From: Isosphaeraceae bacterium | Lineage (GTDB): Bacteria > Planctomycetota > Planctomycetia > Isosphaerales > Isosphaeraceae | Length of the DNA stretch: 35,196 nucleotides | Direction: 5' to 3' | NCBI GenBank assembly: GCA_025356475.1 | Contig: JANXSX010000108.1 | Location: 1-35,196, forward strand | Translations under genes and position numbers: made by a program | Part shown: piece by piece, positions 3,524 to 34,075 of the stretch | Position numbering within the stretch: position 1 is the stretch's first letter | Layout: each line of letters begins with the position of its first letter | Notes under the pieces: generated by a model | What the model saw: the letters and a program-made list of their open reading frames with translations, nothing else | What the model was told of the DNA's origin: nothing | The model's database searches: none

Positions 3524-4969
3524 ATGAAGTTGACCCGATCAAACGGACGGAACGTACGATGCCCCAAACTCGAATCGCTCGAAAGTCGGCAACTGCTTTC
3601 GACAGTCCCGAGTCTACCTCAGCCCGCCGGAACAACTTCAACCGCACCACTCGCTGCCTATGACTTGCTCATCGGCGCGAGCTCGACACGGGTTGCCTAT
3701 GGAGTCGACGGTACAGGTCTCACGGTTGCCGTGATCGATACCGGTGTGAACTATAACCATGAAGCGCTTGGTGGCGGGTTCGGTGCCGGCAAGAAAGTGA
3801 TCGCGGGTTACGACTACGCGATGGGGAAGTCGGACCCGTTTGCCACGACCTGGGAACACGGAACAGCAGTCTCAGGGCTGATTGCGTCCAGTGACCCCGC
3901 CCATCTCGGTGTCGCACCAGGGGCGGATATCGTGGCACTCCGGGTCTTCGGGGACGATAATCAGGGCGATTACAATCGGATCGCAGACTCTCTGCAATAT
4001 GTCCTCGACAATCATACAAAATATCATATCTCTGTTGTGAACCTGTCCATTGCCGACGGTAATAATTATACGCAAAACATCTTCGCAGGTGATGGTGGGG
4101 TCGGTCAGCGAATCACCCAGCTCATTTCGAAGTTGAAGGCAATCAATATTCCTGTGGTATCGGCAACCGGCAATAATTTCACTGGCCAGCCGGGGCAAGG
4201 CTTCACGGCGATCGATCCGGACACCATTAGCGTGACCTCGACGGATGGGACGAATGGGCTCGCCGCCAATGCCCAGCGGCTGGGTGGGCCCAATGGAACA
4301 GACATTGCAGCGCCTGGCACTGGCTTGGTGGCTCCGATCCAGAACAATGAGTTCCAGTCGGTCGATGGGACGAGCTTTGCGACTGCGCTGGTTTCTGGCT
4401 CGGTCGTCCTGCTCCAATCGATCTATATGAAGCAATTTGGAGCCTTGCCCACCGTCACTCAGATCGAAGGCTGGTTGCGGAGTGGGGGGACCTCGCTCAC
4501 CGATCCCATCACGAACATCACGCTCGGCCGGCTCGACTTGACCCGTTCGGCGGCGCTGATCCCGACCGCTCCCAAGTTGCCTCCGGTACCCCTAGTGACT
4601 CCAAGCGTACCGGTTGTGAATGCGCCGCCGAGACTCACTCTTCCAACCGTGTCCCCGGCTACGGTGAAGACCGAGACACCCGTCGTCGCGGTCGTGGCGA
4701 AGTCGACTGTCGTGGCAACTTTCGCCCCTGCCTCTAAGCCGAAGTCGACTCAATCGGCAACGATTTGGAACACTTGGGTGACAAACCTTGGCAGTACGTT
4801 CAAGAGCTGGAAAGTCTGGACCGTGGGGGCAAACCTCAAGCCTGGCCCTTCCCAGCCGGCTGGCTCTTTCCCCAAGCCGAACCCCAAGCTGGCAACAGTC
4901 AACCACCCGAAGGCTCCCAAGTTCGCCAAGCGAGGGACTACCACTCCCAGCCCGAGCAAGGTAGCTTGA
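3524..4969 (+). CDS. subtilisin-family (S8) serine protease, secreted, with LEPR-XLL-like N-terminus
   Basis: A 481-residue peptidase of the subtilase family. The N-terminus reads LESLESRQLLS (residues 16-26), which resembles the LEPR-XLL segment found at the start of many exported planctomycete proteins, so export to the surface is likely. The catalytic triad is intact: D72 in VAVIDTGVNY, H112 in EHGTAVSG and S284 in DGTSFATALVSG, with the oxyanion Asn at 217 in SATGNN. The protease domain ends near residue 345. The remaining 135 residues are a Pro/Val/Lys/Ser-rich, probably unstructured tail. The start is supported by AGGGAG 8 nt upstream. The gene stands alone and is followed by a strong terminator. 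No propeptide is obvious between residue 30 and the catalytic domain. The substrate is unknown. Confidence 0.93.
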   Translation: MKLTRSNGRNVRCPKLESLESRQLLSTVPSLPQPAGTTSTAPLAAYDLLIGASSTRVAYGVDGTGLTVAVIDTGVNYNHEALGGGFGAGKKVIAGYDYAMGKSDPFATTWEHGTAVSGLIASSDPAHLGVAPGADIVALRVFGDDNQGDYNRIADSLQYVLDNHTKYHISVVNLSIADGNNYTQNIFAGDGGVGQRITQLISKLKAINIPVVSATGNNFTGQPGQGFTAIDPDTISVTSTDGTNGLAANAQRLGGPNGTDIAAPGTGLVAPIQNNEFQSVDGTSFATALVSGSVVLLQSIYMKQFGALPTVTQIEGWLRSGGTSLTDPITNITLGRLDLTRSAALIPTAPKLPPVPLVTPSVPVVNAPPRLTLPTVSPATVKTETPVVAVVAKSTVVATFAPASKPKSTQSATIWNTWVTNLGSTFKSWKVWTVGANLKPGPSQPAGSFPKPNPKLATVNHPKAPKFAKRGTTTPSPSKVA

Positions 4970-11799: not shown

Positions 11800-12543
11800 A
11801 TGAAGATGCTGCACGATTCTGAAGGCCATGGCTCGACCGAAACCGATCCTCAGGTTAACGATGCGAGCCGTCGATCGTTCCTGAAACGGTCAGCCCTGGG
11901 GACTGTACCTGCTTTGCTCGGCGTTGCAGGACTTGCACAGGCTGGGGAGAAAAAGAAGCCAATCGCTACCGGTGGACCATCCTTGGTGATGACCGATGCT
12001 GTAAGGGCCTCTATCCCGAGTCTCTACCCCGGCTGGAATGCCAGGAATTTCCGTGAGATTCAGGCCGACGAGAATTCACACGCCGCTGAACTCCTCACCG
12101 TCCTTGGCACTGATGCTCGGCCCAAGCCGACATTTCAAGGGCTTGTGTCTTCAAACATTCAGCAGTTCGTTGCGATGTCGCAGATGTTTGAAAATACCGG
12201 TGTCGGCGCTTACCTTCAGGCCGGATACTTCATCAAGGACAAGACCTACGGCTTCGTAGCGAACCAGATCGCATTGGTTGAAGCGTATCACTCGGGCTAT
12301 CTCAACACCCTGGCGAACTCCCCGATCGTTCCGAACGGCAATCACTACGCAAACGGTCTCTCGGTCGCCCAGATCGTTGCAGCCGTTGGCCCCCTGATCG
12401 TCAGTCTCAATGGTGGTCCTCCTGCGGGCTACCAGGATGTTCAGTCGGACGCAAACGACATTAACATCCTCAACTTCGCCCTCCTCCTCGAATTCCTGGA
12501 ACAAGAGTTCTACAACATCAACGTCCCACGGTTCTTCGGTTGA
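11800..12543 (+). CDS. Tat-exported ferritin-like domain protein, apparently circularly permuted
   Basis: A 247-residue protein. The N-terminus has a twin-arginine signal, RRSFLKRSALG (about residues 24-34), then a hydrophobic stretch ending AQA-GEK, so it should be exported folded. The body carries the hallmarks of the Ferritin_2 family: an EIQADENSH segment with an ExxH, FENTGVGAY, VEAYHSGYL with a second ExxH, and ILNFALLLEFLEQEFYN. In ordinary Ferritin_2 proteins that last helix comes first; here it is at the C-terminus, so the four-helix bundle looks circularly permuted. Metal-binding Glu/His residues appear present, so a di-metal site is plausible; the reaction is unknown. The ATG at 11800 has GAGGAC 6 nt upstream; the frame is open further up, but that part holds the promoter. 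The gene is followed by a strong terminator. Confidence 0.85.
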   Translation: MKMLHDSEGHGSTETDPQVNDASRRSFLKRSALGTVPALLGVAGLAQAGEKKKPIATGGPSLVMTDAVRASIPSLYPGWNARNFREIQADENSHAAELLTVLGTDARPKPTFQGLVSSNIQQFVAMSQMFENTGVGAYLQAGYFIKDKTYGFVANQIALVEAYHSGYLNTLANSPIVPNGNHYANGLSVAQIVAAVGPLIVSLNGGPPAGYQDVQSDANDINILNFALLLEFLEQEFYNINVPRFFG

Positions 12544-12634: not shown

Positions 12635-13960
12635 TCAGAGTCCATTGAGCTCAACTCGATCAACGACCGCATCCGAAGCGGCGATCGGTGTTGAGAGGCT
12701 GGAACGACCCGGCCCGACAGCGAGACCGGCCAACTCGTGACGGGACGCACCCGTGGAGTCGCCCGACTTGACGATCACCTTGAAGACGGTGAACGGCAGG
12801 CGGTTCTCGACCTTATAGGCGACTGCCCCCGAAGCCTTCTTGGCCGGCTTGACCCGAACGAATGCCGAAGCGACCGTCCGATCGAGCGTGGCAGCGAGGT
12901 CAGTGCCCGAGAGATTCGCGAGCGATTCAACGCGACTGAAGGGCAGGGCACCCAGCATCGTCCATTCGCCAGCGCTAGCTGAGCGGACGAGAATCTTGCC
13001 CTGGCTCTTGCCGTCATTTGCATTGAACACGACCGAGAGGTGCAGAGCAGGCCCATCGGTGGTTGGAGTGTCAGTCGATGCGAGAACCTTAACGGGCAAA
13101 CCGAGGACGTGAAGCCCTTCGAGTTCGCTCAGAAGTCTGCGTGAAGCATCGCTTTGGCCTTCGACTGTAACAAAGACACGCCCACTTTGAATGGTGGCCG
13201 GATCGACGAGGTCGCTCGTTGCAGAGCCATCGATCGCTTCAACGAATCGTGAGGCGAGCCCGATCTCGTGCAGGTTCATCACTCCATCGCCCTTCGATGA
13301 GGTGCCGACCTTTTCGGCCATCATGTCGAACGAGAGTCCGTTGGCGATGTTCCAGATCGCAGCTTGGGCAACGCCAAATGACGTCCCGTAGGTTGCGAGA
13401 CTGCGGAGTCCCTTACGGACGCGAGGATCGCGGGTGTAATCCTCGACATCGACCAGCTCAAGTTTGTCTTTGGCAGTCGGGGTCTTGAGGCCGTAGTTGA
13501 GACACACAGCGGAGAGTGTTAGGTCAACCGTCTGACCGGCGGGAACCGTGACGCTGGGTCCGCTCGCAGCCGAGACACCGACCGACCTGAAACCAGCTTG
13601 AGGAGCCGGGGCCTGGAAGCCTCCGAAACCTCCTGCGGGAGTTCCGATGGGTCCGAGACCAACGCTCTGGCCGCCTCGACCTTGTGCGGTGGCGTTGGCC
13701 CCGACGAGACCGGGAGGAATGACGATGTTCAGGAGCCTGGTTGAGGTGTTGGTGAGGCTCATTAGGGCTTTGCCCTGACCACCACCCCGCAGGTCGACTT
13801 TGAGTTCGCCCGACTTGCGAGCATCGAGAATCTTGACGGTGTCAGTCGAGGAATCGGCGGTTTGTCCGAGATCGGCAGCGTGGGACGCACCCACGAACAC
13901 ACCGCTCAACAGGCTCGCGGCCGAAAAGGCCCGGACCAGACTCAGGCGTCGCCACAGCAT
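12635..13960 (-). CDS. secreted protein of unknown function
   Basis: A 441-residue protein I cannot assign to a family. Residues 1-29 form a signal peptide (basic start, hydrophobic core, cleavage after SHA-AD), so it is exported. Around residues 95-130 is a Gly/Pro/Ala/Gln-rich stretch (GGFGGFQAPAPQ), probably a flexible linker. Before it lies a beta-rich segment (LTNTSTRLLNIVIPPG, about 68-83) like the intracellular-proteinase-inhibitor or 'conserved motif' domains of secreted planctomycete proteins. AAAGG lies about 7 nt before the ATG. It converges on the ferritin-like gene through a shared terminator, and lies downstream of another exported protein on the same strand, 221 nt away. A structural or surface role is a guess only. 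Confidence 0.8.
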   Translation of the reverse strand: MLWRRLSLVRAFSAASLLSGVFVGASHAADLGQTADSSTDTVKILDARKSGELKVDLRGGGQGKALMSLTNTSTRLLNIVIPPGLVGANATAQGRGGQSVGLGPIGTPAGGFGGFQAPAPQAGFRSVGVSAASGPSVTVPAGQTVDLTLSAVCLNYGLKTPTAKDKLELVDVEDYTRDPRVRKGLRSLATYGTSFGVAQAAIWNIANGLSFDMMAEKVGTSSKGDGVMNLHEIGLASRFVEAIDGSATSDLVDPATIQSGRVFVTVEGQSDASRRLLSELEGLHVLGLPVKVLASTDTPTTDGPALHLSVVFNANDGKSQGKILVRSASAGEWTMLGALPFSRVESLANLSGTDLAATLDRTVASAFVRVKPAKKASGAVAYKVENRLPFTVFKVIVKSGDSTGASRHELAGLAVGPGRSSLSTPIAASDAVVDRVELNGL

Positions 13961-24612: not shown

Positions 24613-26385
24613 ATGGCCAAACAGAGCCGTGACTGGACGGAAATCCTGATCCGGCGCGGGGTCATCGGCCCCGACCAGCTCCAGGAAGCCCAACGGATGG
24701 GCGGATCGTCCGCCGAGGAGGCACTTGCCAAGCTTGGCTATGCCGATGCCGACGATATCATGAAAGCGAAGGCCGAGCAGTACAACTACAAGTACGTCGA
24801 CCTCCGCGAAGTCACCATCCCCGAAAATGTCATCGCTCAACTCCCCGAGAGCCTGGCACGCGAAAACTCGGTCATGCCACTCGCTCTTGAAGGTGGTGTC
24901 ATGCACGTCATCGTGCATGATCCCCTCGATTTCGAGACCATCGACAAGCTCCGGTTCGTCCTGAATAAGGAGATCGAGGTTGCGCTTGCTCCCAAGCAGG
25001 CCATTGTCGAGGCGATCAACAAATACTACGGCGGATCGTCCGGCGAGACCGAGTCGGTCGACTCGATGCTTCAGGAGTTCTCCGACACTGCGATCGACTT
25101 CTCAGATGACGGGCCAGGAGGAGGCAGCAAGGGTTCGGGTGCAAATACGCTCGAAGAGGGGGACGCCCCGGTCATCCGCCTCGTCCACTTGATTATCCAA
25201 GAAGCGGTGACCAGCCGGGCCTCGGACATTCACATTGAGCCGTTCGCGGACCGGGTGCGAATTCGGTATCGGATCGACGGCGTGTTGATGGAGCGAGACT
25301 CTGCCCCACGACGCCTCCTGGGTTCGATCGTCAGTCGTATTAAGATCATGGGCTCGATCGACATCGCCGAGAAACGTCGTCCTCAGGACGGGCGTGTGAA
25401 GATCAACGTAGCCGGGAAGGATATTGACCTTCGTGTCAGTATCCTGCCCACCAGCCACGGCCAATCGGTGGTCATGCGTATCCTGGACCGAGATAACATC
25501 AAGGTCGGGCTTCGCGACCTGGGGTTCAGCGACGACGACTGGAAACGCTTCTCGGTTCTGATCAAGCGACCGAATGGTATCTTGCTCGTCACGGGGCCGA
25601 CCGGGTCGGGCAAGACGACAACCCTCTACGCAGCGCTGAACGAACTCAACCGACCCGACACCAAGATCATTACAGCGGAGGATCCTGTCGAGTATTACTT
25701 GCCAGGTGTCAACCAATGTGAGGTCAAAGCGAAGATCGGTATGACGTTCGCTCGGATCATTCGGGCCATGCTCCGGCAGAATCCGAACATCCTTCTGGTC
25801 GGTGAAATTCGGGACGAAGAGACGGCCAATACCGCCATCCAGGCCTCGCTCACCGGACACTTGGTTTTCAGTACACTCCATACGAACGATGCACCGAGCG
25901 CTGTAACGAGACTGGTCGATATCGGCGTTCAGCCGTTTCTCGTCGCTAGCTCGGTCATGGCCATCATGGCGCAACGGCTCGTACGGAAGACCTGCCCCAA
26001 GTGTCGGGCTCGTTACGAGCCGCCAGCGCACGTTTTGATCGGCCTCGGCCTCAAACCTGAACTGGCCAAGAAGGCCAATTTCATGAGAGGTAAGGGTTGC
26101 CAGAACTGCGGTAAGAAGGGGTATCGAGGTCGAATGGGCATCTACGAACTGATGTCGATGACCAACGCCATCCGTGAGATGACATTCAAAGGCGAACCAA
26201 CGCAAAATCTCCGTAAAGTGGCTCGCAAAGAGGGGATGCGAACACTCTTCGAAGACGGGATGATCAAAGCCCTCAAGGGGCTGACCACTATCGACGAGGT
26301 CGTTCGCATCACCAAACAGGATCAAGTGGCCGACGCACCACCGCCTCCGCCCGCCGCGGCTGCTGCCCAGCCGGCAAAGGCCTAA
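24613..26385 (+). CDS. GspE/PilB-family secretion or pilus assembly ATPase
   Basis: A 590-residue hexameric ATPase that would power pilin or pseudopilin assembly at the inner membrane. The N-terminal MshEN-type domain covers about residues 8-140. After a Gly/Ser-rich acidic linker (about 140-178) comes the ATPase core: Walker A GPTGSGKT (328-335), the Asp box ITAEDPVEY, Walker B ILLVGEIRDEET, and the His box STLHTNDAPSAVTRL. A tetracysteine zinc site follows (C461/C464 and C496/C499), typical of PilB/GspE and absent from PilT. The tail ends in a Pro/Ala-rich stretch. GGAG lies 9 nt before the ATG. It is the first gene of the locus and is closed off by a strong terminator, so it may be expressed apart from the genes after it. 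Its motifs fall at the same residue numbers as in the paralog at 28006. Confidence 0.95.
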   Translation: MAKQSRDWTEILIRRGVIGPDQLQEAQRMGGSSAEEALAKLGYADADDIMKAKAEQYNYKYVDLREVTIPENVIAQLPESLARENSVMPLALEGGVMHVIVHDPLDFETIDKLRFVLNKEIEVALAPKQAIVEAINKYYGGSSGETESVDSMLQEFSDTAIDFSDDGPGGGSKGSGANTLEEGDAPVIRLVHLIIQEAVTSRASDIHIEPFADRVRIRYRIDGVLMERDSAPRRLLGSIVSRIKIMGSIDIAEKRRPQDGRVKINVAGKDIDLRVSILPTSHGQSVVMRILDRDNIKVGLRDLGFSDDDWKRFSVLIKRPNGILLVTGPTGSGKTTTLYAALNELNRPDTKIITAEDPVEYYLPGVNQCEVKAKIGMTFARIIRAMLRQNPNILLVGEIRDEETANTAIQASLTGHLVFSTLHTNDAPSAVTRLVDIGVQPFLVASSVMAIMAQRLVRKTCPKCRARYEPPAHVLIGLGLKPELAKKANFMRGKGCQNCGKKGYRGRMGIYELMSMTNAIREMTFKGEPTQNLRKVARKEGMRTLFEDGMIKALKGLTTIDEVVRITKQDQVADAPPPPPAAAAAQPAKA

Positions 26386-26399
26386 GCCCACCACACCTT

Positions 26400-26436
26400 G
26401 ACCCCGGTCCGATTTGCGTCGGGCCGGGGTCTTTTT
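26400..26436 (+). terminator. intrinsic terminator after the first ATPase gene
   Basis: GACCCCGG (26400-26407) pairs with CCGGGGTC (26424-26431); the stem extends inward to 13 pairs with one G-T and a 6-nt loop. TTTTT (26432-26436) follows directly. It lies 14 nt past the stop. Confidence 0.9.
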
Positions 26437-26650
26437 CACGCTAGTCCGCTCCACAAATCAGACGAGAGTCCAATGACCCGTCCCTGCCCAAAGGGATCGG
26501 GCCCATGCAAACCCGCCCCGCCGTTTGACCCGGTTGGGCTTGATCGGGATAATGTCCTTGTGAGCCGGGTTTCGCCTCCTCTTGGCGTAAGTCATTTCGC
26601 CCGTTCTCCATTCCCTTGGACACCTGGTCGGCGAGACAAAGTCAAGTACC

Positions 26651-26670
26651 CCCAGGGTGTTCGCCCTGGG
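26651..26670 (+). promoter_or_regulatory. stem-loop in the pilT leader
   Basis: CCCAGGG (26651-26657) and CCCTGGG (26664-26670) pair around TGTTCG, 58 nt before the pilT ATG. No T run follows, so it is not a terminator; a leader structure is more likely. The rest of the 343-nt gap (26386-26728) holds the terminator above and presumably the pilT promoter, which I cannot place. Confidence 0.4.
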
Positions 26671-26728
26671 AGTGTTCCAGTGGAAGTTGGGGGTCGTCAA
26701 CGAAGACCTCGCCGGAGGATGTGACCGA

Positions 26729-27865
26729 ATGGGTACTCTGCTCATCGACAAGCTGCTGACAACCGTTTGCACCCAGCGTGCAAGCGACTTGCACCTCACT
26801 GTCGGCAGTCCGCCGATGCTTCGGTTGCATGGTCACATGCGACCACTCGCGACTAAGGTGCTCGAGTCGGCCGACACAAGTGCATTAATGAAGAGCATCA
26901 CCCCTGAACGCTGCCAGCAGGAGCTTCAGGAAGTCGGAGGTTGCGACTTCGGATTTGCGTTCGGGGACATGGCTCGGTTCCGCGTTGCGATCTTTAAGCA
27001 GCGTGGTTTTGTTGGGCTGGTCTTGCGACGAATCCCCAACGAATTCCTCACCTTCGAGCAGCTCGGTCTGCCCAAGATTATTGAGGAATTGATCACCCGC
27101 CCCCGTGGTCTGATTCTGGTCACCGGGCCGACCGGATCGGGCAAGACAACCAGTTTGGCGAGCATGCTGAACTGGATCAATCACAACATGGATCGGCACA
27201 TCATCACGATCGAAGATCCCATCGAGTACTTCCACAAGCACGAGAAGTCGTTGGTCAATCAGCGTGAGATCGGGATCGATGTCCCCGACTTCCCTGAAGC
27301 CATTCGTCGCGCTCTGCGAATGGACCCCGACATCATCCTCGTCGGTGAGATGCGAGACTTGGCCACAATCCAGGCTGCGATCACGGCGGCGGAAACGGGA
27401 CACATCGTCTTCGGGACGCTTCACACCAACTCGGCGGAAGGAACAGTCAACCGAATCATCGACGTGTTCCCACAGGAACAACAAGATCAGATTCGGACGC
27501 AACTCTCGGTCGCCATCATTGGGATCCTGGCTCAAGCCCTTCTCCCTCGCAAGCCCAAGGGGTTGGTGGCTGCCTACGAAATGCTCGTGGTGACACCTGC
27601 GATCTCGAACTTGATTCGTGAAAACAAGACCTACCGAATTGATTCGTCGATCCAGACCGGGCGAAAGCACGGGATGATTCTGCTCGACGATAGCCTCTTC
27701 AACCTCTGGAAACAGGGGCTGGTCGAAGAGGAAGAAGTTCTCTTCAAAGCGCGAAAGCGGAATGAGCTGCGAGACCGAATCGAGCTCGCCAAGAAGGGTA
27801 TCTTCGAAGATGAGCCCGATGAGGAGGAAGAAGTGGCCGAGCCGTCCAAGAAAAAGAAAGACTAA
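26729..27865 (+). CDS. pilT: PilT-family twitching motility / pilus retraction ATPase
   Basis: A 378-residue hexameric ATPase that would depolymerise type IV pili at the inner membrane. It opens with the PilT-type N-terminal domain (ASDLHLTVGSPPMLR, about residues 18-32). Walker A is GPTGSGKT (133-140), the Asp box is TIEDPIEY, Walker B is IILVGEMRD, and the His box is GTLHTNSAEGTVNRI. AISNLIRE near residue 291 is the PilT-specific AIRNLIRE retraction motif with one change. There is no tetracysteine site, as expected for PilT. The C-terminal 25 residues are an unusual acidic-then-basic tail (EDEPDEEEE...KKKK). The frame is open upstream, but the ATG at 26729 gives the family N-terminus with GGAGG 10 nt before it. 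It sits between two PilB-type ATPases. Confidence 0.93.
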   Translation: MGTLLIDKLLTTVCTQRASDLHLTVGSPPMLRLHGHMRPLATKVLESADTSALMKSITPERCQQELQEVGGCDFGFAFGDMARFRVAIFKQRGFVGLVLRRIPNEFLTFEQLGLPKIIEELITRPRGLILVTGPTGSGKTTSLASMLNWINHNMDRHIITIEDPIEYFHKHEKSLVNQREIGIDVPDFPEAIRRALRMDPDIILVGEMRDLATIQAAITAAETGHIVFGTLHTNSAEGTVNRIIDVFPQEQQDQIRTQLSVAIIGILAQALLPRKPKGLVAAYEMLVVTPAISNLIRENKTYRIDSSIQTGRKHGMILLDDSLFNLWKQGLVEEEEVLFKARKRNELRDRIELAKKGIFEDEPDEEEEVAEPSKKKKD

Positions 27866-27878
27866 GTCCGGAATCGTC

Positions 27879-27904
27879 GAGGTTGACGGATCTCCGTCAA
27901 CCTC
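27879..27904. repeat. 12-bp perfect inverted repeat between pilT and pilB
   Basis: GAGGTTGACGGA (27879-27890) and its exact complement (27893-27904) are separated by 2 nt, 14 nt after the pilT stop. As RNA this is a strong stem-loop without a T run, so it may protect the upstream 3' end or tune read-through into pilB; as DNA it could bind a dimeric regulator. Confidence 0.6.
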
Positions 27905-28005
27905 AACGCCCGGCCAACATTTCAACCCTTGGGTGGCCCGATTGGGTCCCTCTGAGTCTTCTCGAATCGGTCGCGCTCGTCCCTGGAAGCGAAGGAACTA
28001 TTCTT

Positions 28006-29724
28006 ATGGCACGCCGGCTTGGCACCGTATTGGTCGACTTGGGCTACCTCGATGAGGAACAGCTCTGGAAGGTCATTGAAGAACAAAAGAAGAATCCCGG
28101 AGAGTTGATTGGCAAGGTCGCCACCCGGCTCGGGTTGGTGAGCGAAGATCGCGTGATGAAGGCGCTCGGCGAGCAGCTTGGCATGAAGGTTGTTCGCCTT
28201 GCGGATATGGCGATACCCTCAGAGCTGACCGAGATCGTCAACGAAACCATGGCCACTGCCTTCAAGGTGGTGCCGATCTCGATGAATAAGAAGGATAAAT
28301 CGATCAAGGTGGCGATGGCCGAACCCCAGAACCTGGGGACACTCGATAGCCTCCGTCAATTTGTGACAGTCCCTCTTGAAGCAGTGATCGCGACCGAGGA
28401 CGAAGTGAAGGCTGCGATCGAACGCCTCTATGCCGGGAAGCAGCAGTCGATTGCCGACGTTGTCAAAGAAATCGAAAACGACAAGGTTCTCACCGCGCAT
28501 CGGAACCGAAACGAGAATACGGTCGACCTGGAAGCGATCGAGGAAATGGCCGAAGCGGCCCCAGTTCGTAAACTTGTCAATATGATCTTGCTCTTGTCGA
28601 TCCGCGACAAGGCGAGCGATATCCACTTTGAACCTTTCGAAGAAGAATACAAGATTCGCTACCGGGTGGATGGTGTCCTCTACGAACTCGTCCCCCCTCC
28701 CAAGCATCTTTCACCAGCGATCGCCAGCCGTCTCAAGGTCATGTCGAACCTGGATATTGCCGAGCGTCGCCTGCCTCAGGACGGACGTATCGAGTTGAAT
28801 CTCGGCGGCAGCCAAGTCGATATTCGAGTCTCCACGTTGCCGACATTGTTCGGTGAGAGCGTGGTCCTCCGGATCTTGGACCGAACTGTCGTCCAGCTCG
28901 ACTTGAACAAGATCGGCATGCCCACCGACACACTCGCCGTCTGGCGCACCTTGATCGAGAAACCGAACGGGATCATCCTCGTTACTGGCCCGACCTCGTC
29001 GGGTAAGACGACGACCTTGTATGCGACGCTCAACGAGTTGAACAAGGTTGAGGACAAGATTATCACGACCGAGGAGCCTGTCGAGTACGACATTGATGGG
29101 CTCGTCCAGGTGCCGATCAATCCAGAGATCGGGGTCACATTCGCCGCCGCTCTTCGGGCAATCCTGCGCCAGGATCCCGACAAGATTTTGGTGGGAGAGA
29201 CCCGCGACCTGGAAACTGCGGAAATCTCGATTCAAGCCTCGTTGACCGGCCACATTGTATTCACAACTCTGCATACGAACGATGCCCCTTCCGCGATCAC
29301 TCGGCTGCGCGACATGGGTGTGCCGACGTTCTTGATCACAGCGACCATCGAAGGGGTGCTGGCACAGCGGCTGGTCCGCAAGATTTGCAACTTCTGTCGT
29401 ACGGAATTCACGCCGAGTGTTGAGGTCGGCATGGAGATCGGGATGACAATGGAGCAAATGCTCCAGAAGAAGTTTTACTACGGCAAGGGTTGCGAGAAGT
29501 GCAACAACACCGGTTACAAAGGCCGAATGGGAATTTATGAGCTTTTGCTCATGAACGACACGTTGCGTGAAATGGTCGTGAATGAGTCTTCGCTCGACGA
29601 TTTCCGGTCGGCCTGTCGCCGTTTCGGTATGCGAACCTTGCGTGAGACCGGCCTTACTCAAATCCACCAAGGGCTGACCTCGATCGAAGAGATCGTCCGC
29701 GAAACAATCCTCGACGACATTTGA
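28006..29724 (+). CDS. pilB: PilB/GspE-family pilus assembly ATPase
   Basis: A 572-residue paralog of the ATPase at 24613. The N-terminal MshEN-type domain (about residues 1-145) has GTVLVDLGYLDEEQL. The core has Walker A GPTSSGKT (328-335), Asp box TTEEPVEY, Walker B ILVGETRDLETAE and His box TTLHTNDAPSAITRL. The zinc tetracysteine is C461/C464 and C496/C499. It would assemble pilin subunits with the PilC platform encoded 54 nt downstream. The frame is open from 27883, but the ATG at 28006 gives the MARRLGTVLVDLG start with AAGGAA 8 nt upstream. The Asp box uses Glu-Glu in place of Glu-Asp. Placement next to pilC and pilT argues for a type IV pilus role over type II secretion, but the two systems cannot be separated by sequence alone. 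Confidence 0.95.
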   Translation: MARRLGTVLVDLGYLDEEQLWKVIEEQKKNPGELIGKVATRLGLVSEDRVMKALGEQLGMKVVRLADMAIPSELTEIVNETMATAFKVVPISMNKKDKSIKVAMAEPQNLGTLDSLRQFVTVPLEAVIATEDEVKAAIERLYAGKQQSIADVVKEIENDKVLTAHRNRNENTVDLEAIEEMAEAAPVRKLVNMILLLSIRDKASDIHFEPFEEEYKIRYRVDGVLYELVPPPKHLSPAIASRLKVMSNLDIAERRLPQDGRIELNLGGSQVDIRVSTLPTLFGESVVLRILDRTVVQLDLNKIGMPTDTLAVWRTLIEKPNGIILVTGPTSSGKTTTLYATLNELNKVEDKIITTEEPVEYDIDGLVQVPINPEIGVTFAAALRAILRQDPDKILVGETRDLETAEISIQASLTGHIVFTTLHTNDAPSAITRLRDMGVPTFLITATIEGVLAQRLVRKICNFCRTEFTPSVEVGMEIGMTMEQMLQKKFYYGKGCEKCNNTGYKGRMGIYELLLMNDTLREMVVNESSLDDFRSACRRFGMRTLRETGLTQIHQGLTSIEEIVRETILDDI

Positions 29725-29778
29725 TTCACCCCAGCGCCCCACCTCCGAGGTGTCAGCTAGCCAAGGGAGAGACGAGCC

Positions 29779-31026
29779 ATGCCGACGTTCTCTTATGAAG
29801 CGATGGACCATACAGGGCGTGAGGTGAAAGACACCATCGACGCCAACACGCAAGAAGAAGCCCAGCAACTGATCCGCCAGAAGGGGTTCTTCGTCACCAA
29901 GATCAGCGAGCGCGCCAAGGGGGGCGGCAAGAAAAAGGCGACCGCCAAGAAGGGGGGTCGTAAGAAAAAGAAGACGTTCACATTCGGTAAGATCTCGACC
30001 AAACAACTCTGTACGTTTACCCGTCAGCTCTCGACCTTGCAAGACGCAGGTCTGCCCATCTTGCGAAGCCTCCGAATTCTTGAAGGTCAGTGCAAGCCAG
30101 GCGTTCTCAAGAATGCACTCAGCGAAGTGGTCGATGATATCGAGAGCGGCTCGACTCTCTCCGAAGCGTTCCAGAAACACCCCAAGGCGTTCGACCGGCT
30201 CTACTGCAACATGATCAAGGCTGGCGAAGCGGGCGGTGCCCTCGAAGCCATTCTCCAGCGGTTGGCTGACTTCAAAGAAAAGTCGCAGACCCTGAAGCGA
30301 CGCATCAAGTCGGCAATGGTCTACCCGATGGTCGTGATCACCGTCGCCACCGCGATTGTGGGGTTCATTCTCTACTTCATCATTCCCAAGTTCGAGGCGA
30401 TTTTCAAAGACTTCGGTGTGGATCTACCGAAGATGACGATCTATTTGATCAAAGCCTCCAACTTCGTTGTCAAATATTATTACATTTGCTTGTTGGCACC
30501 ATTCTTTTTCTGGATCATTCTGAAGTTGATCCGGCGTCTTGAGACCGGCAGATATGTGACCGACCGAATTTTGCTCATGATTCCGGTCATGGGCCAAATC
30601 GCCGAAAAATCGACCGTCGCCCGCACCATGCGTACCCTCGGTACTTTGGTCCAGTCCGGCGTGCCCATCTTGGAAGCGCTTCACATCGTCCGCGACACGG
30701 CGGGCAACGCTGTTTTCGAGCGAGCTTTCTCACGAATTTATGAGAGCATTCGTGAAGGTGAAACGATCGCTCAACCGTTGAAAGAGTCACGAATCGTTGA
30801 CGACATCGTTGTTAATATGATCGATGTTGGTGAGGAGACCGGCGACCTTGACACGATGCTCAACAAGATCGCTGACAACTACGATGAAGAAGTGGAAACA
30901 CTGGTCGAGAGCTTGGTGAGCTTGCTCGAACCGATCATGATCGTGGTCCTCGGCGGGATCATCGGCTTCATCGTCATTGCCCTCTTCTTGCCGCTGATTC
31001 AGTTGATCAGCAAGCTGTCGGGTTAA
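29779..31026 (+). CDS. pilC: PilC/GspF-family inner-membrane platform protein
   Basis: A 415-residue polytopic membrane protein that forms the platform on which the assembly ATPase acts. The N-terminus FSYEAMDHTGREVKDTIDA and TKQLCTFTRQLSTLQDAGLPILRSL are typical of the family. There are two homologous cytoplasmic T2SSF domains (about 75-200 and 275-400), with membrane helices near 180-200, 230-250 and 378-405. Between the N-terminal strand region and the first domain is a very Lys-rich stretch (about residues 46-66, with KKKATAKK and RKKKK), longer than usual. GGGAGA lies before the ATG. It is 54 nt after pilB, with a small CACCTC/GAGGTG hairpin (29740-29752) in the gap, so the two are probably cotranscribed. 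Confidence 0.95.
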   Translation: MPTFSYEAMDHTGREVKDTIDANTQEEAQQLIRQKGFFVTKISERAKGGGKKKATAKKGGRKKKKTFTFGKISTKQLCTFTRQLSTLQDAGLPILRSLRILEGQCKPGVLKNALSEVVDDIESGSTLSEAFQKHPKAFDRLYCNMIKAGEAGGALEAILQRLADFKEKSQTLKRRIKSAMVYPMVVITVATAIVGFILYFIIPKFEAIFKDFGVDLPKMTIYLIKASNFVVKYYYICLLAPFFFWIILKLIRRLETGRYVTDRILLMIPVMGQIAEKSTVARTMRTLGTLVQSGVPILEALHIVRDTAGNAVFERAFSRIYESIREGETIAQPLKESRIVDDIVVNMIDVGEETGDLDTMLNKIADNYDEEVETLVESLVSLLEPIMIVVLGGIIGFIVIALFLPLIQLISKLSG

Positions 31027-31052
31027 AATCTCGGATGTAGTTCGGTGTGGTA

Positions 31053-31094
31053 CTCCCCTCCCAGCCCGTGCACACGGGCTGGAATGAGGAGGGG
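31053..31094 (+). terminator. strong stem-loop between pilC and the first pseudopilin
   Basis: CCAGCCCGTG (31061-31070) and CACGGGCTGG (31073-31082) are perfect complements with a 2-nt loop. CTCCCC (31053-31058) and GAGGGG-like bases (31088-31094) can extend the base of the stem. No clear T run follows on the plus strand, so it may be an attenuator or a 3'-end stabiliser more than a full stop. Confidence 0.5.
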
Positions 31095-31185
31095 TTGGCC
31101 GGACCACCACTGATATTTTGAGTGAACACGTCCAATTTGGTCACTTTGACACTCTCACGACTGGTCCGCCCCGGAGAATCGACCG

Positions 31186-32346
31186 ATGAACCGCACAACT
31201 GGCCGCAACCGGCCTGGCTTTACCTTGATCGAGCTTCTTGTCGTTGTCTTGATCATCGGTATCTTGATTGCCCTGCTCTTACCGGCGATCAATGGTGCTG
31301 TTCAAAGCGCCCGGAACGCCGCCGTGTCTGCGGAGATCGTCCAGCTCGCGACCGCACTCGAAGACTTCAAGAGTAAGTACGGGGAGTACCCGCCCAGCCG
31401 GATTATTCTCAATGAGGATGGTCACTACAACACATCAAGCAGCACGACTCTGCTCGCGGCCAGCGGCGGGTTTTTTGGTGGTGGTGACAAAGATTCCAAC
31501 ATTTACGATCCCCATGACCTCACATATGGTCAACTCTGCGATCGTTCACTTCGGTTCCTCCGCAAGTTCGCTCCCAAGGCTCCGTTCGTGGTTGGGGCTT
31601 CGACTGGAGTCAAGATTCACGACTTCACGGGAACCGGGATTTCAGCAGGGTCCTCAGCCCAGTCGATTCTCTTGCAGGGGAACGAGTGCCTGGTTTTCTT
31701 CCTCGGTGGGATACCCATCCATGACGCGACGGGTGCCACGATCGGTGTCTCCGGCTTTAGTAAGAGCCCGACGACCCCGTTCACGACCGCAAGTTCCGGG
31801 ACAAATCGTAGTGCTCCTATGATGGAATTTGTGGTCAGCCGACTGATCGATGACGACGGTGATGGCATGCCGGGTTACGTGGATCCCCGCTCCTCCGGCG
31901 GAAACCCTCGTTTCTACGCCTATTTCAGCTCGTACGGCAACGGCGGCTACGACCCCAACGACAATAATTATGCAGGCACTGGAGCCCTTGACCCGAGCGA
32001 GTACGGCGGCCCTGCAACGTTTGCACATAAGATGCGAGTGAACTTCTCAAATGCCAGTGTCGCCCCGTTCTATGTGCAATCACCTGCCCCGAACCCCTAC
32101 ACCAGTAACGCGGCTTACAATGCCTCGGCAGCCCCGGTCTACCTGAAACCACAGTCGTTCCAGATCATCTCGGCAGGGCGTGACGGCTTGTATGGACTTG
32201 GTGGCGAGTACGCCGGCAGCAACACAGGGAGTCGCCTTCCTGTCGGCCCTGCTCCCTTCCCGGAGTGGGTGGCCGCTGATCCTGCAGGGGCACGGCTCGG
32301 TGAACGCGACAATATCACCAACTTCGCCACCGGTGTGCTTGAATAA
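31186..32346 (+). CDS. large pseudopilin (prepilin-type N-terminus, GspG-like)
   Basis: A 386-residue protein with a class III signal: a 10-residue basic leader, then G11/F12 in RPGFTLIELLVVVLIIG with the Glu at +5, and a 20-residue hydrophobic helix. SAEIVQLATALEDFKSKYGEYPPS (about residues 48-71) is the GspG/pseudopilin pattern. It is far longer than a normal pseudopilin (about 140). The insert includes an acidic loop, D222-DDGDG, which resembles a calcium-binding loop, and a Gly/Tyr/Asn-rich stretch (about 245-260). Near the C-terminus is a GRDGLYG motif common in planctomycete relatives. CGGAGA lies 8 nt before the ATG. It would be cleaved by prepilin peptidase and assembled by the ATPases and PilC upstream. 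Confidence 0.9.
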   Translation: MNRTTGRNRPGFTLIELLVVVLIIGILIALLLPAINGAVQSARNAAVSAEIVQLATALEDFKSKYGEYPPSRIILNEDGHYNTSSSTTLLAASGGFFGGGDKDSNIYDPHDLTYGQLCDRSLRFLRKFAPKAPFVVGASTGVKIHDFTGTGISAGSSAQSILLQGNECLVFFLGGIPIHDATGATIGVSGFSKSPTTPFTTASSGTNRSAPMMEFVVSRLIDDDGDGMPGYVDPRSSGGNPRFYAYFSSYGNGGYDPNDNNYAGTGALDPSEYGGPATFAHKMRVNFSNASVAPFYVQSPAPNPYTSNAAYNASAAPVYLKPQSFQIISAGRDGLYGLGGEYAGSNTGSRLPVGPAPFPEWVAADPAGARLGERDNITNFATGVLE

Positions 32347-32446
32347 TGCGTGCATGCTGTCACGGGATTTATCGTCGATCCGTAGAAGAGTGTTGGTTTG
32401 TCTGTCGGTTGGATTTCCGTTTGTGGTCTAGAAAGGGGGTGATGTG

Positions 32447-34075
32447 ATGCGAATTCAGACGCGAGATCGAAGCGGTTTTACACTGCTCGAATTGTTGGTG
32501 GTCGTGGCGATCATCGGCATCATCGTCGCGTTCATCACGGCCGCCGCCGCCGATGGAATCCGACGCGCCGAGGAACGACAGACTCAAGCCTTAATCGTCA
32601 AGCTTGAGACAGCCGTGGCCGACCGCATGGACGCGTTGATGCTGATACCCGCACCCGTGAACCGCGCACATAAGTGGTTGGCGGCAATTCATAGCACGGT
32701 GGTCAAGCAAAACGACAGCTTGAACCCATTCGGTGTAATCCCCAGTCAAGAACGAGCTCAGATCATTGCACGGATTGATATGATCCGGGCCGAGATGCCC
32801 GAGACTTGGTTCCCACTCGGCACCCCTCTTACTGCGAGTGGTGCGACCTATCTCGTTAGCTACGGAGGGAACGCTTACCCCTCTAATAGCGCTGGCTCGC
32901 TCGACGCCTACACTTTACCGATGGGGGCACGAGTTCTGGATACGAGCGGGGGCGCTTACTCATCCGGTACGATTACAACCTCGGTCCTCAAGATCGATGG
33001 CCAAAGTGGGTATCCGTTCGACCCAACCTATGACCTTGATGGAAGCGGAATTCTAGGAGCTTCCTATGGGGCTGCGGCTGGAATTGCTAAGGGGCTTGGG
33101 GCCAAACCGCAAGGTCACGACGGCGTCGATAATGACGGCAACGGTTATACAGATGATTATGCCGAGTGGATCTTTGGTGAAGCCGTCGGTGGGCCGACTG
33201 ACACGCTGATTCGAGCCCACCTGGCGTCCCACGACCCGAAGACTGCCCGCGCAGAAATGCTCTACGCCGTCTTGGTAGAGGGGCAGGGGGCGCTCGGTAG
33301 TGTCTTCTCTTCGGACTCATTCACAGATCGAGAAGTTCGAGATACGGATGGGGATGGACTCCCCGAGTTCGTGGATGCCTGGGGCGAGCCGATCCAGTTC
33401 TTCCGCTGGCCAACCTACTACATCGATAGCGATCTGGGCGTAACCCAGCCGACGCCTGGGGTTCCTTCAGGGAACAATGCCTCGCTCTTTCAGAGAGGCT
33501 ACTTGCCTTACAACTCGACGTTAGACCTCAGGCAGCAGTGTATTCTCGACCCAGCCCAAACTCTGGTGGCTCCCGCCTGGTGGGGCACTGCGGTCAACGA
33601 CTTGGCAATCTATGCCTCACCTTCCGGCCTGCCGAGCCCACCCGCTACGATCAGTACCTCTGCACTGGAATTTCAGCGCCAGTTTTTCAGCCTCCTCGAC
33701 CCCGATTTCGCAGGCGGAGGGGGGACGAAATGGGACAGGTCGGGGCAGTCGCTCCGCCGTGCCTACTTCTGTAAACATCTAGTCATCTCCTCCGGACCTG
33801 ATAAGACGCTGGGGATCGGATTGATTACCGATCCGACCGCGATTTCGCCCCTGACATTGATCTTGATTGAGAACCAAGCGGCTCAAGCGTCTCTCGTAAG
33901 CGATGGTGGCGGAGCGAATCGTTCGGGAGTGCTTTACCAGGGTATCGCGAGCGTCGCCCAGCCCTTTACACCTGCCTTGTCCTTGAGTTCGCTTCCCAGC
34001 TATACGATTTATCACGGGTCGATGGACGATATCTCGAACCAAAATCTCTCTGGCCCGGGAACGGGGGTGCGCTGA
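32447..34075 (+). CDS. large pseudopilin with acidic metal-binding-like loops
   Basis: A 542-residue protein with a class III signal: leader MRIQTRDRSG, then FTLLELLVVVAIIGIIV with Glu at +5. The rest is a large external domain without a recognised fold. Two Asp-rich loops stand out: D225-GVDNDGNGYTDD and D299-TDGDGLPEF, both like EF-hand or thrombospondin type 3 calcium loops. AGGGGG sits 7 nt before the ATG at 32447; a GTG just before it at 32444 is less likely. The gene begins 100 nt after the first pseudopilin and its stop codon overlaps the next start (TGATG), so translation is probably coupled. It may be a minor or tip pseudopilin of the same fibre. Confidence 0.85.
   Translation: MRIQTRDRSGFTLLELLVVVAIIGIIVAFITAAAADGIRRAEERQTQALIVKLETAVADRMDALMLIPAPVNRAHKWLAAIHSTVVKQNDSLNPFGVIPSQERAQIIARIDMIRAEMPETWFPLGTPLTASGATYLVSYGGNAYPSNSAGSLDAYTLPMGARVLDTSGGAYSSGTITTSVLKIDGQSGYPFDPTYDLDGSGILGASYGAAAGIAKGLGAKPQGHDGVDNDGNGYTDDYAEWIFGEAVGGPTDTLIRAHLASHDPKTARAEMLYAVLVEGQGALGSVFSSDSFTDREVRDTDGDGLPEFVDAWGEPIQFFRWPTYYIDSDLGVTQPTPGVPSGNNASLFQRGYLPYNSTLDLRQQCILDPAQTLVAPAWWGTAVNDLAIYASPSGLPSPPATISTSALEFQRQFFSLLDPDFAGGGGTKWDRSGQSLRRAYFCKHLVISSGPDKTLGIGLITDPTAISPLTLILIENQAAQASLVSDGGGANRSGVLYQGIASVAQPFTPALSLSSLPSYTIYHGSMDDISNQNLSGPGTGVR

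Follow-up and report, generated by a model that had tools for sequence, protein, structure and literature searches.

Ferritin-like bundles are among the most used metal scaffolds in biology; their connectivity is up-down-down-up with one crossover, and in ferritins the first helix (h1) stands first in the chain. For the Ferritin_2 family (PF13668), the closest described systems are RvFeMP-1 (RvY_06210) of Ramazzottius varieornatus and DRB0118 of Deinococcus radiodurans. In the part of PMC11616004 that we draw on here and below, RvFeMP-1 is a di-metal metabolite phosphatase with the ligands Glu51, Glu90, His93, Glu132, Asp135 and Asp162, and its activity is abolished by D135A/N; DRB0118, which has Gly at the 135 position and an extra helix-1 Glu that may compensate for Asp135, is also a phosphatase, and its loss lowers desiccation survival. 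The same source places the reported activities 1–2 orders of magnitude under those of known metabolite phosphatases and describes the M1 ligands Glu51, Glu90 and His93 as conserved across the FeMP family. A candidate identification of RvY_06210 as the tardigrade Mn-dependent peroxidase proved wrong: that peroxidase is g12777, a beta-sandwich protein (PMC9145152, in the part used here), and RvY_06210 is the metabolite phosphatase. Here we analyse a 35,196-nucleotide stretch of an Isosphaeraceae bacterium genome (contig JANXSX010000108.1, hereafter the window), one gene of which encodes a Ferritin_2-like protein with its helices in rotated order. The protein is very probably a naturally circularly permuted Ferritin_2 di-metal bundle, a judgement that leaves its activity aside.

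The gene is a 247-amino-acid frame on the plus strand, with its ATG at 11800 and its stop at 12541–12543; a profile search of its own 5.9-Mb genome, in which the window is contig 111, found no other PF13668 gene. From N to C terminus the motifs are EIQADENSH (residues 86–94), FENTGVGAY (130–138), VEAYHSGYL (160–168) and ILNFALLLEFLEQEFYN (223–239), which are the four motifs, in the same order, from which an initial annotation had proposed a shift of the first helix to the C-terminal end. PF13668 matched the whole protein with 89.7 bits (E = 2.4e-25), above its gathering cut-off of 24.7, and placed profile positions 35–137 on residues 74–173. Profile positions 1–24 were found downstream, at 12454–12525, by the genome search (23.8 bits, whole-genome E = 1.7e-4), a piece that taken alone is slightly below the 24.7-bit cut-off. 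The family order h1-h2-h3-h4 is not kept, as positions 35–137 of the profile come before 1–24, and the protein reads h2-h3-h4-tail-h1. Pfam-type matches reveal such a rearrangement merely as two partial matches.

Two alignments underlie the comparisons that follow: one (A2) joins the window protein to 45 of 49 permuted frames from the loci L062–L140, with near copies excluded, and the other (A3) holds 45 of 52 canonical frames, leaving out near copies, L120 (two domains) and L130 (its frame extends beyond the locus); the two-domain L131 is in neither. For an independent test of the order, helix profiles were built exclusively from 45 canonical-order relatives. On the protein they matched h2 at residues 83–104 (13.4 bits, against 5.7 for the best of 2,000 shuffles of the protein), h3 at 121–139 (27.4 against 7.9), h4 at 156–171 (13.0 against 6.2), the tail at 190–202 (9.3 against 6.6, which makes it the weakest match) and h1 at 219–239 (33.6 against 4.3). 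Judged by these profiles, the four motifs and their rotated order are beyond chance. A second h1 copy near the N terminus was also looked for with the canonical h1 profile, and since its one match is that at 219–239, there is none.

In profile–profile comparison (hhalign) with the canonical family, the native order scored 251 over h2–tail only, h1 separately reached 86.6 against canonical positions 6–35, and placing h1 first raised the score to 329 in one alignment of 156 columns. Six further arrangements, one of them without h1, scored 186–304, with the top value for the adjacent rotation, which begins with the tail. Against the structure of RvY_06210, the permuted-family profile aligned as two swapped pieces, the C-terminal helix on alpha-1 (chain residues 37–63) and h2–tail on chain residues 76–199; with phmmer, the sequence on its own found only noise in the PDB, and profiles were needed for matches. 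The swapped Pfam pieces, the canonical-only profiles and the gain from 251 to 329 thus bear out the proposed move, and the rotation test, the swapped pieces on RvY_06210 and the canonical h1 profile point to the C-terminal helix as the sequence counterpart of helix 1. One could argue instead that the C-terminal LNFALLLEFLEQEFY helix is unrelated or convergent and the real helix 1 lost, given that short helices can resemble each other and that this helix alone matches RvFeMP-1 weakly; its lead over 2,000 shuffles with a canonical-only profile, the rotation test and the invariance of E231, E234 and Y238 in all 46 permuted rows make that explanation extremely improbable. The LExLE, ExxH, ENxG and ExxH residues conserved in Ferritin_2 are likewise present in 46 of 46 rows. 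By sequence, the protein is a member of a permuted sister subfamily, homologous to Ferritin_2 yet no standard member of it, and is filed there because the PF13668 helix order is not kept.

An AlphaFold2 model of the monomer, made from the 46-row alignment, had a mean predicted local distance difference test score (pLDDT) of 82.1, with ten-residue means of 87–99 from residue 71 on and 95–99 in the last helix; its five helices, four of them long, are given in Table 1, and those of a modelled canonical relative from Solirubrobacterales lie at 71–95, 102–129, 145–169, 173–197 and 216–226. For both models the top Foldseek match in the PDB was RvY_06210 (E = 0.021 with the permuted model; E = 3e-5 with the canonical one, which had six PDB matches at E ≤0.001). 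In VIA comparisons, the canonical model aligned with RvY_06210 through all its helices (residues 70–231; Z 21.6, 154 residues, 1.8 Å) and the permuted model through h2–tail only (residues 63–210; Z 14.5, 142 residues, 2.6 Å); because that alignment begins at chain residue 44, alpha-1 of RvY_06210 is wholly or nearly left out of it. The next matches of the permuted model were the cytokines G-CSF (Z 11.7, 136 residues, 2.8 Å, model residues 67–247) and IL-11 (Z 11.2), and the cytokine matches span nearly its whole folded length. Bacterioferritin and Dps entries in the same list covered only residues ~64–178 (h2–h4; Z 7.6–9.2), and for the canonical model no cytokine stood among the 50 VIA rows listed.

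Long-chain cytokine bundles are connected up-up-down-down. The up-down-down-up connectivity of ferritins was not found in the permuted protein, the sequence order of which is rotated and the whole-length matches of which are up-up-down-down bundles, as expected of a ferritin bundle with h1 rotated to the end. The model would accordingly be read as the same closed four-helix bundle as ferritin with the connectivity changed to up-up-down-down. In this probably Tat-exported domain, the chain order h2-h3-h4-tail-h1 replaces h1-h2-h3-h4-tail, with the cut in the h1–h2 loop and a new join in which 17 residues connect the tail helix to h1; 45 residues separate h4 from h1, so the linker could cross the length of the bundle. 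The Ferritin-like fold (a.25) is counted among the internally symmetric folds, with 34 of 43 domains at Z of at least 8, in the part of PMC2894822 used here. Given this pseudo-symmetry, a shift by two helices would be expected to restore the usual connectivity, and a shift by one would not. The long linker ahead of the last helix in the model would also suit a domain swap, in which the C-terminal helix of one chain packs into its partner's bundle and two chains share the di-metal site, and the solved relative RvFeMP-1 is indeed a dimer (PMC11616004). However, the interface of that dimer uses alpha-4, not alpha-1 (PMC11616004), and the single-chain model is confident to its end and aligns with four-helix cytokines along its entire length, which leaves a swap unlikely.

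The metal positions of the permuted family, E231 and E234 in h1, E91 and H94 in h2, E131 in h3, and E161 and H164 in h4, are invariant in 46 of 46 rows, as are G134 in h3 and Y238; in the 45 canonical rows the same ligand positions are invariant save one row in one column. These kept positions suggest di-metal binding and agree with the expectation in the initial annotation that a di-metal site could still form in the rotated bundle. By alignment, the FeMP M1 ligands correspond to E231, E91 and H94, all invariant, and the combination E231/E91/H94/E131/G134/E161 with E234 and H164 would make the site resemble that of DRB0118. By analogy, the protein is likely an exported di-metal enzyme, perhaps a stress-related phosphatase that would use its di-metal centre, once exported, to hydrolyse metabolites that are phosphorylated or damaged, an assignment that we make tentatively; a phosphatase is the best single guess, with a redox di-metal role close behind. 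Such a role, as an Fe/Mn-binding exported peroxidase, catalase-like enzyme or ferroxidase of the same permuted fold, is a possibility to be taken seriously. An E, ExxH, E, ExxH set is the classic di-iron site, and the full h4 ExxH (E161, H164), invariant in every permuted row, is closer to classic sites than Asp162 of RvFeMP-1. Moreover, Asp135, essential in RvFeMP-1 (PMC11616004), is Gly here; yet DRB0118, with the same Gly and the extra Glu, was a phosphatase (PMC11616004), and no known redox partner was seen among the three neighbouring genes scanned.

The N-terminal region carries a putative twin-arginine translocation (Tat) signal, SRRSFLKRSALGTVPALLGVAGLAQA, in which SRRSFLK is followed by a hydrophobic stretch and, judged by eye, an AxA-like cleavage site at AQA. 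The twin arginine is kept without exception in the 29 close relatives aligned (A1, holding 29 of 31 rows; L029, a fragment with an in-frame stop, and a second match in G028 that has no locus were excluded) and in all 42 of the 46 A2 rows with letters there, and the genome encodes TatC (E = 2e-58). The export route named in the initial annotation is well supported by these sequence features, and it would allow the cofactor to be loaded ahead of export.

Relatives were collected by a genome-contig scan, from which the best 80 of 115 were kept, in 79 loci. The permuted order occurs in 48 loci (49 frames) and the canonical order in 30 (52 frames), with L067 holding both; the remaining loci are L131, a two-domain fusion, and L108, whose h1 lies in a different frame and which is not included among the permuted loci. 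By record title, the permuted loci comprise 31 from planctomycetes, 14 from Ktedonobacteria, 2 from 'Acidobacteria' and 1 from 'Proteobacteria'. The title of the last (L109) is probably wrong, because the genome set places its genome, G526, in one class with Thermogemmatispora. Permuted genes thus occur in Planctomycetota and Ktedonobacteria, and rarely in Acidobacteriota. Within the order of the window's genome, the protein has matches in 27 of 45 genomes, in one case just a fragment with an in-frame stop. PF13668 matches 35 of the 248 genomes of the same class: 29 show the core followed by the start-of-profile piece, as read from the match table, in three (G009, G010 and G038) the C-terminal helix is visible once aligned, G026 has a fragment, and only canonical-order matches are present in G040 and, weakly, in G006; the permuted genomes G011 and G014 carry a canonical-order match too.

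In the Thermogemmatispora class, PF13668 is present in 30 of 47 genomes, 17 of them with the permuted pattern as read from the match table (in G538 the two pieces lie in different frames), and this class is also rich in genes of canonical order. The permuted profile matches 10 of the 149 genomes in the class to which the 'Acidobacteria' genome G525 belongs: two over its whole length, seven with the h1 piece ahead of the core in a canonical-like manner and one by the core only. Across all loci collected, core scores did not overlap between the orders (98–148 bits for 107 permuted frames and 39–85 bits for 54 canonical frames, totals that include certain genes repeatedly), a gap favoured by a core profile made from permuted sequences. 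A draw of genomes from the phylum had PF13668 in 31 of 294; besides the window's own genome, none of the 30 matching genomes showed the core followed by the start-of-profile piece, 25 matching from near the profile start and 5 by a later part only, with no separate h1, all at 20–37 bits. Fourteen of these genomes, examined as loci, gave nothing above 11 bits with our own profiles and are therefore distant relatives of neither the permuted nor the canonical form. A tblastn search of plasmids returned seven records, all short of 80% query coverage; the best, from Aquisphaera giovannonii, reached 70%.

In a tree of h2–h4 (95 rows, 108 columns), all 46 permuted rows fell on one side of a single branch with support 100/97; with h1 added and seven long-branched rows dropped, the separating branch had 100/99. 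The named row nearest to the window protein was an Isosphaeraceae record, and the next Planctomycetota. The root is not fixed, and a single origin is therefore compatible with the tree rather than proven; the permuted order is taken as derived because relatives outside the group have h1 first, as ferritins do. In the usual textbook account, a permutation arises when two tandem genes fuse and the product is trimmed, and the permuted order probably arose once in this way, from tandem canonical genes whose fusion and trimming would yield it in one event. Tandem arrangements are frequent: in 18 of 32 canonical loci, canonical genes occur as pairs or triplets on one strand, some a few bases apart by the start codons that our script chose, and in L116, L117, L122 and L124 three stand in a row, the middle ones forming a separate divergent branch of the tree. 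Two haloarchaeal genes (L120:4653-5987 and L131:4506-5837) encode two complete canonical Ferritin_2 domains per chain and are possible models of the duplication stage preceding permutation. In some genomes PF13668 rows run past the stop, for example with profile positions 1–57 (G020) or 1–70 (G188). We considered this sequence as a relic of duplication and rejected it, as the frames after the stop in L035 (G188), L047, L054, L055, L057 and L060 were unrecognizable by eye.

Several observations weigh against this account. The permuted model had no PDB match in Foldseek at E ≤0.001; its cytokine Z scores of 9–12 fall below the threshold of 13 advised for helical bundles, for which Z below ~13 is common; the C-terminal helix by itself reaches only 10 bits (E ~4) against RvFeMP-1; and its assignment to the slot of helix 1 is indirect, from sequence and topology. 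At the position of the catalytic Asp135 of RvFeMP-1 the permuted family has an invariant Gly, a residue shared with DRB0118, so that the phosphatase reading depends on one tested protein with such a site. Curated Tat models stayed below their cut-offs (TIGR01409, 15.6 against 16.7 bits; PF10518, 12 against 22.7), which makes the export route less than certain, and no five-helix intermediate (h1-h2-h3-h4-h1) was present among the frames of the 79 loci. Taking these points together with the evidence above, we think it fairly likely that one event, probably in tandem Ferritin_2 genes, produced a cytokine-like up-up-down-down bundle with a working di-metal site, which then became established across Planctomycetota and Ktedonobacteria as an exported enzyme of stress response and is undescribed in the literature searched. 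Among the open-licence papers listed by these searches, none was seen to name a natural permutant of the ferritin-like fold; the part of PMC2894822 used here, on an internal-symmetry method, names none for the Ferritin-like fold, and 'permut' is absent from PMC11616004. If correct, a permutant with its metal positions kept would mean that the site depends on the packed bundle, not on chain order, and would link two bundle topologies classed apart. Both orders, sometimes in one genome, also form a large natural data set for the effects of permutation on folding, export and catalysis.

The features of the gene and its immediate downstream flank are collected in Table 1.

Table 1 Coordinates of the permuted Ferritin_2 gene, its predicted parts and the adjoining repeat in the window
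Feature	Position	Strand	Evidence
Permuted Ferritin_2 gene, 247 amino acids (P0001), stop included	11800..12543	+	PF13668; end-to-end alignment with 28 relatives (A1)
Putative Tat signal region, residues 1–48, RR 24–25 (11869–11874), likely cleavage after AQA	11800..11943	+	Conservation; cleavage by eye
Helix h2, residues 79–105, predicted ligands E91 and H94	12034..12114	+	AlphaFold2 model, invariance, canonical h2 profile
Helix h3, residues 120–142, predicted ligand E131, invariant G134	12157..12225	+	Model, profile, conservation
Helix h4, residues 148–171, predicted ligands E161 and H164	12241..12312	+	Model, profile, conservation
Short tail helix (alpha-5 equivalent), residues 189–199, and stretch 200–216 toward the moved helix	12364..12447	+	Model, profiles
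Moved helix h1, residues 217–246, predicted ligands E231 and E234; N-terminal in canonical Ferritin_2	12448..12537	+	Profiles, model, conservation
Inverted repeat, 22-nucleotide arms, 91% complementary, 4-nucleotide loop	12561..12608		Between the permuted gene and the convergent gene 12635-13960

The permuted gene stands alone on its own strand, with an acylphosphatase gene upstream on the opposite strand and, downstream, the convergent gene 12635-13960, which has no Pfam match and a start that looks secreted. The inverted repeat between them is perhaps a two-way terminator, and a terminator scan reported none. When a conserved operon was sought in 49 loci including the window, the widest neighbour cluster comprised 14 loci and had no member adjoining the window's gene; recurrent neighbours of the permuted gene are present in some lineages. 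In eight loci (L065, L066, L070, L073, L094, L098, L100 and L106), three of them close relatives of one another, a gene for a sigma-70 factor of the extracytoplasmic function (ECF) type precedes the permuted gene on the same strand, at a distance of ~1.3 kb to 0.2 kb, and in seven it is the nearest predicted frame; a 108-amino-acid predicted frame intervenes in L100, and Pfam confirmed the sigma factor of L070. In L110 the sigma factor is on the other strand, and the window's gene has none beside it. The upstream ECF factors hint at stress regulation in these eight relatives, which the window does not share.

A secreted-looking DUF4394 protein is encoded upstream of the permuted gene in L064, L077, L089 and L103 and downstream in L093, in Gemmataceae and Pirellulaceae records; Pfam matched DUF4394, Calx-beta and FG-GAP in L077, and the others were recognized by BLAST. 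Elsewhere in the window, we noted by eye a run of genes at 24613–34075 for ATPase, inner-membrane and pseudopilin-like proteins of type II secretion or type IV pilus kind, and a subtilisin-like protease gene at 3524–4969 with an LESRQLLS-type motif near its start. Motifs of this type are frequent in planctomycete surface proteins.

Compared with known systems, the window protein shares its helices and conserved residues with the canonical Ferritin_2 proteins of Solirubrobacterales, Acidobacteriota, Bacteroidota and other bacteria, which, unlike it, have h1 first and are often encoded in tandem pairs or triplets. G-CSF and IL-11 align with the permuted model over its whole length, consistent with an up-up-down-down arrangement, but the likeness is one of arrangement only, with no sign of common descent, and to our knowledge long-chain cytokines carry no metal site of the Ferritin_2 kind. 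RvFeMP-1 (PDB 8KCE/8WAI/8W9K) belongs to the same Pfam family and superposes through h2, h3, h4 and alpha-5; in alignments mapped by eye, its Glu51, Glu90, His93, Glu132 and Asp162 correspond to E231, E91, H94, E131 and E161, and it differs in its canonical helix order, its extra IgG-like domain and Asp135 in place of Gly134 (PMC11616004). DRB0118, compared by its description in that source, is like the window protein a Ferritin_2 protein without an IgG domain, with Gly at the Asp135 position and an extra helix-1 Glu, and differs in being treated there with helix 1 first.
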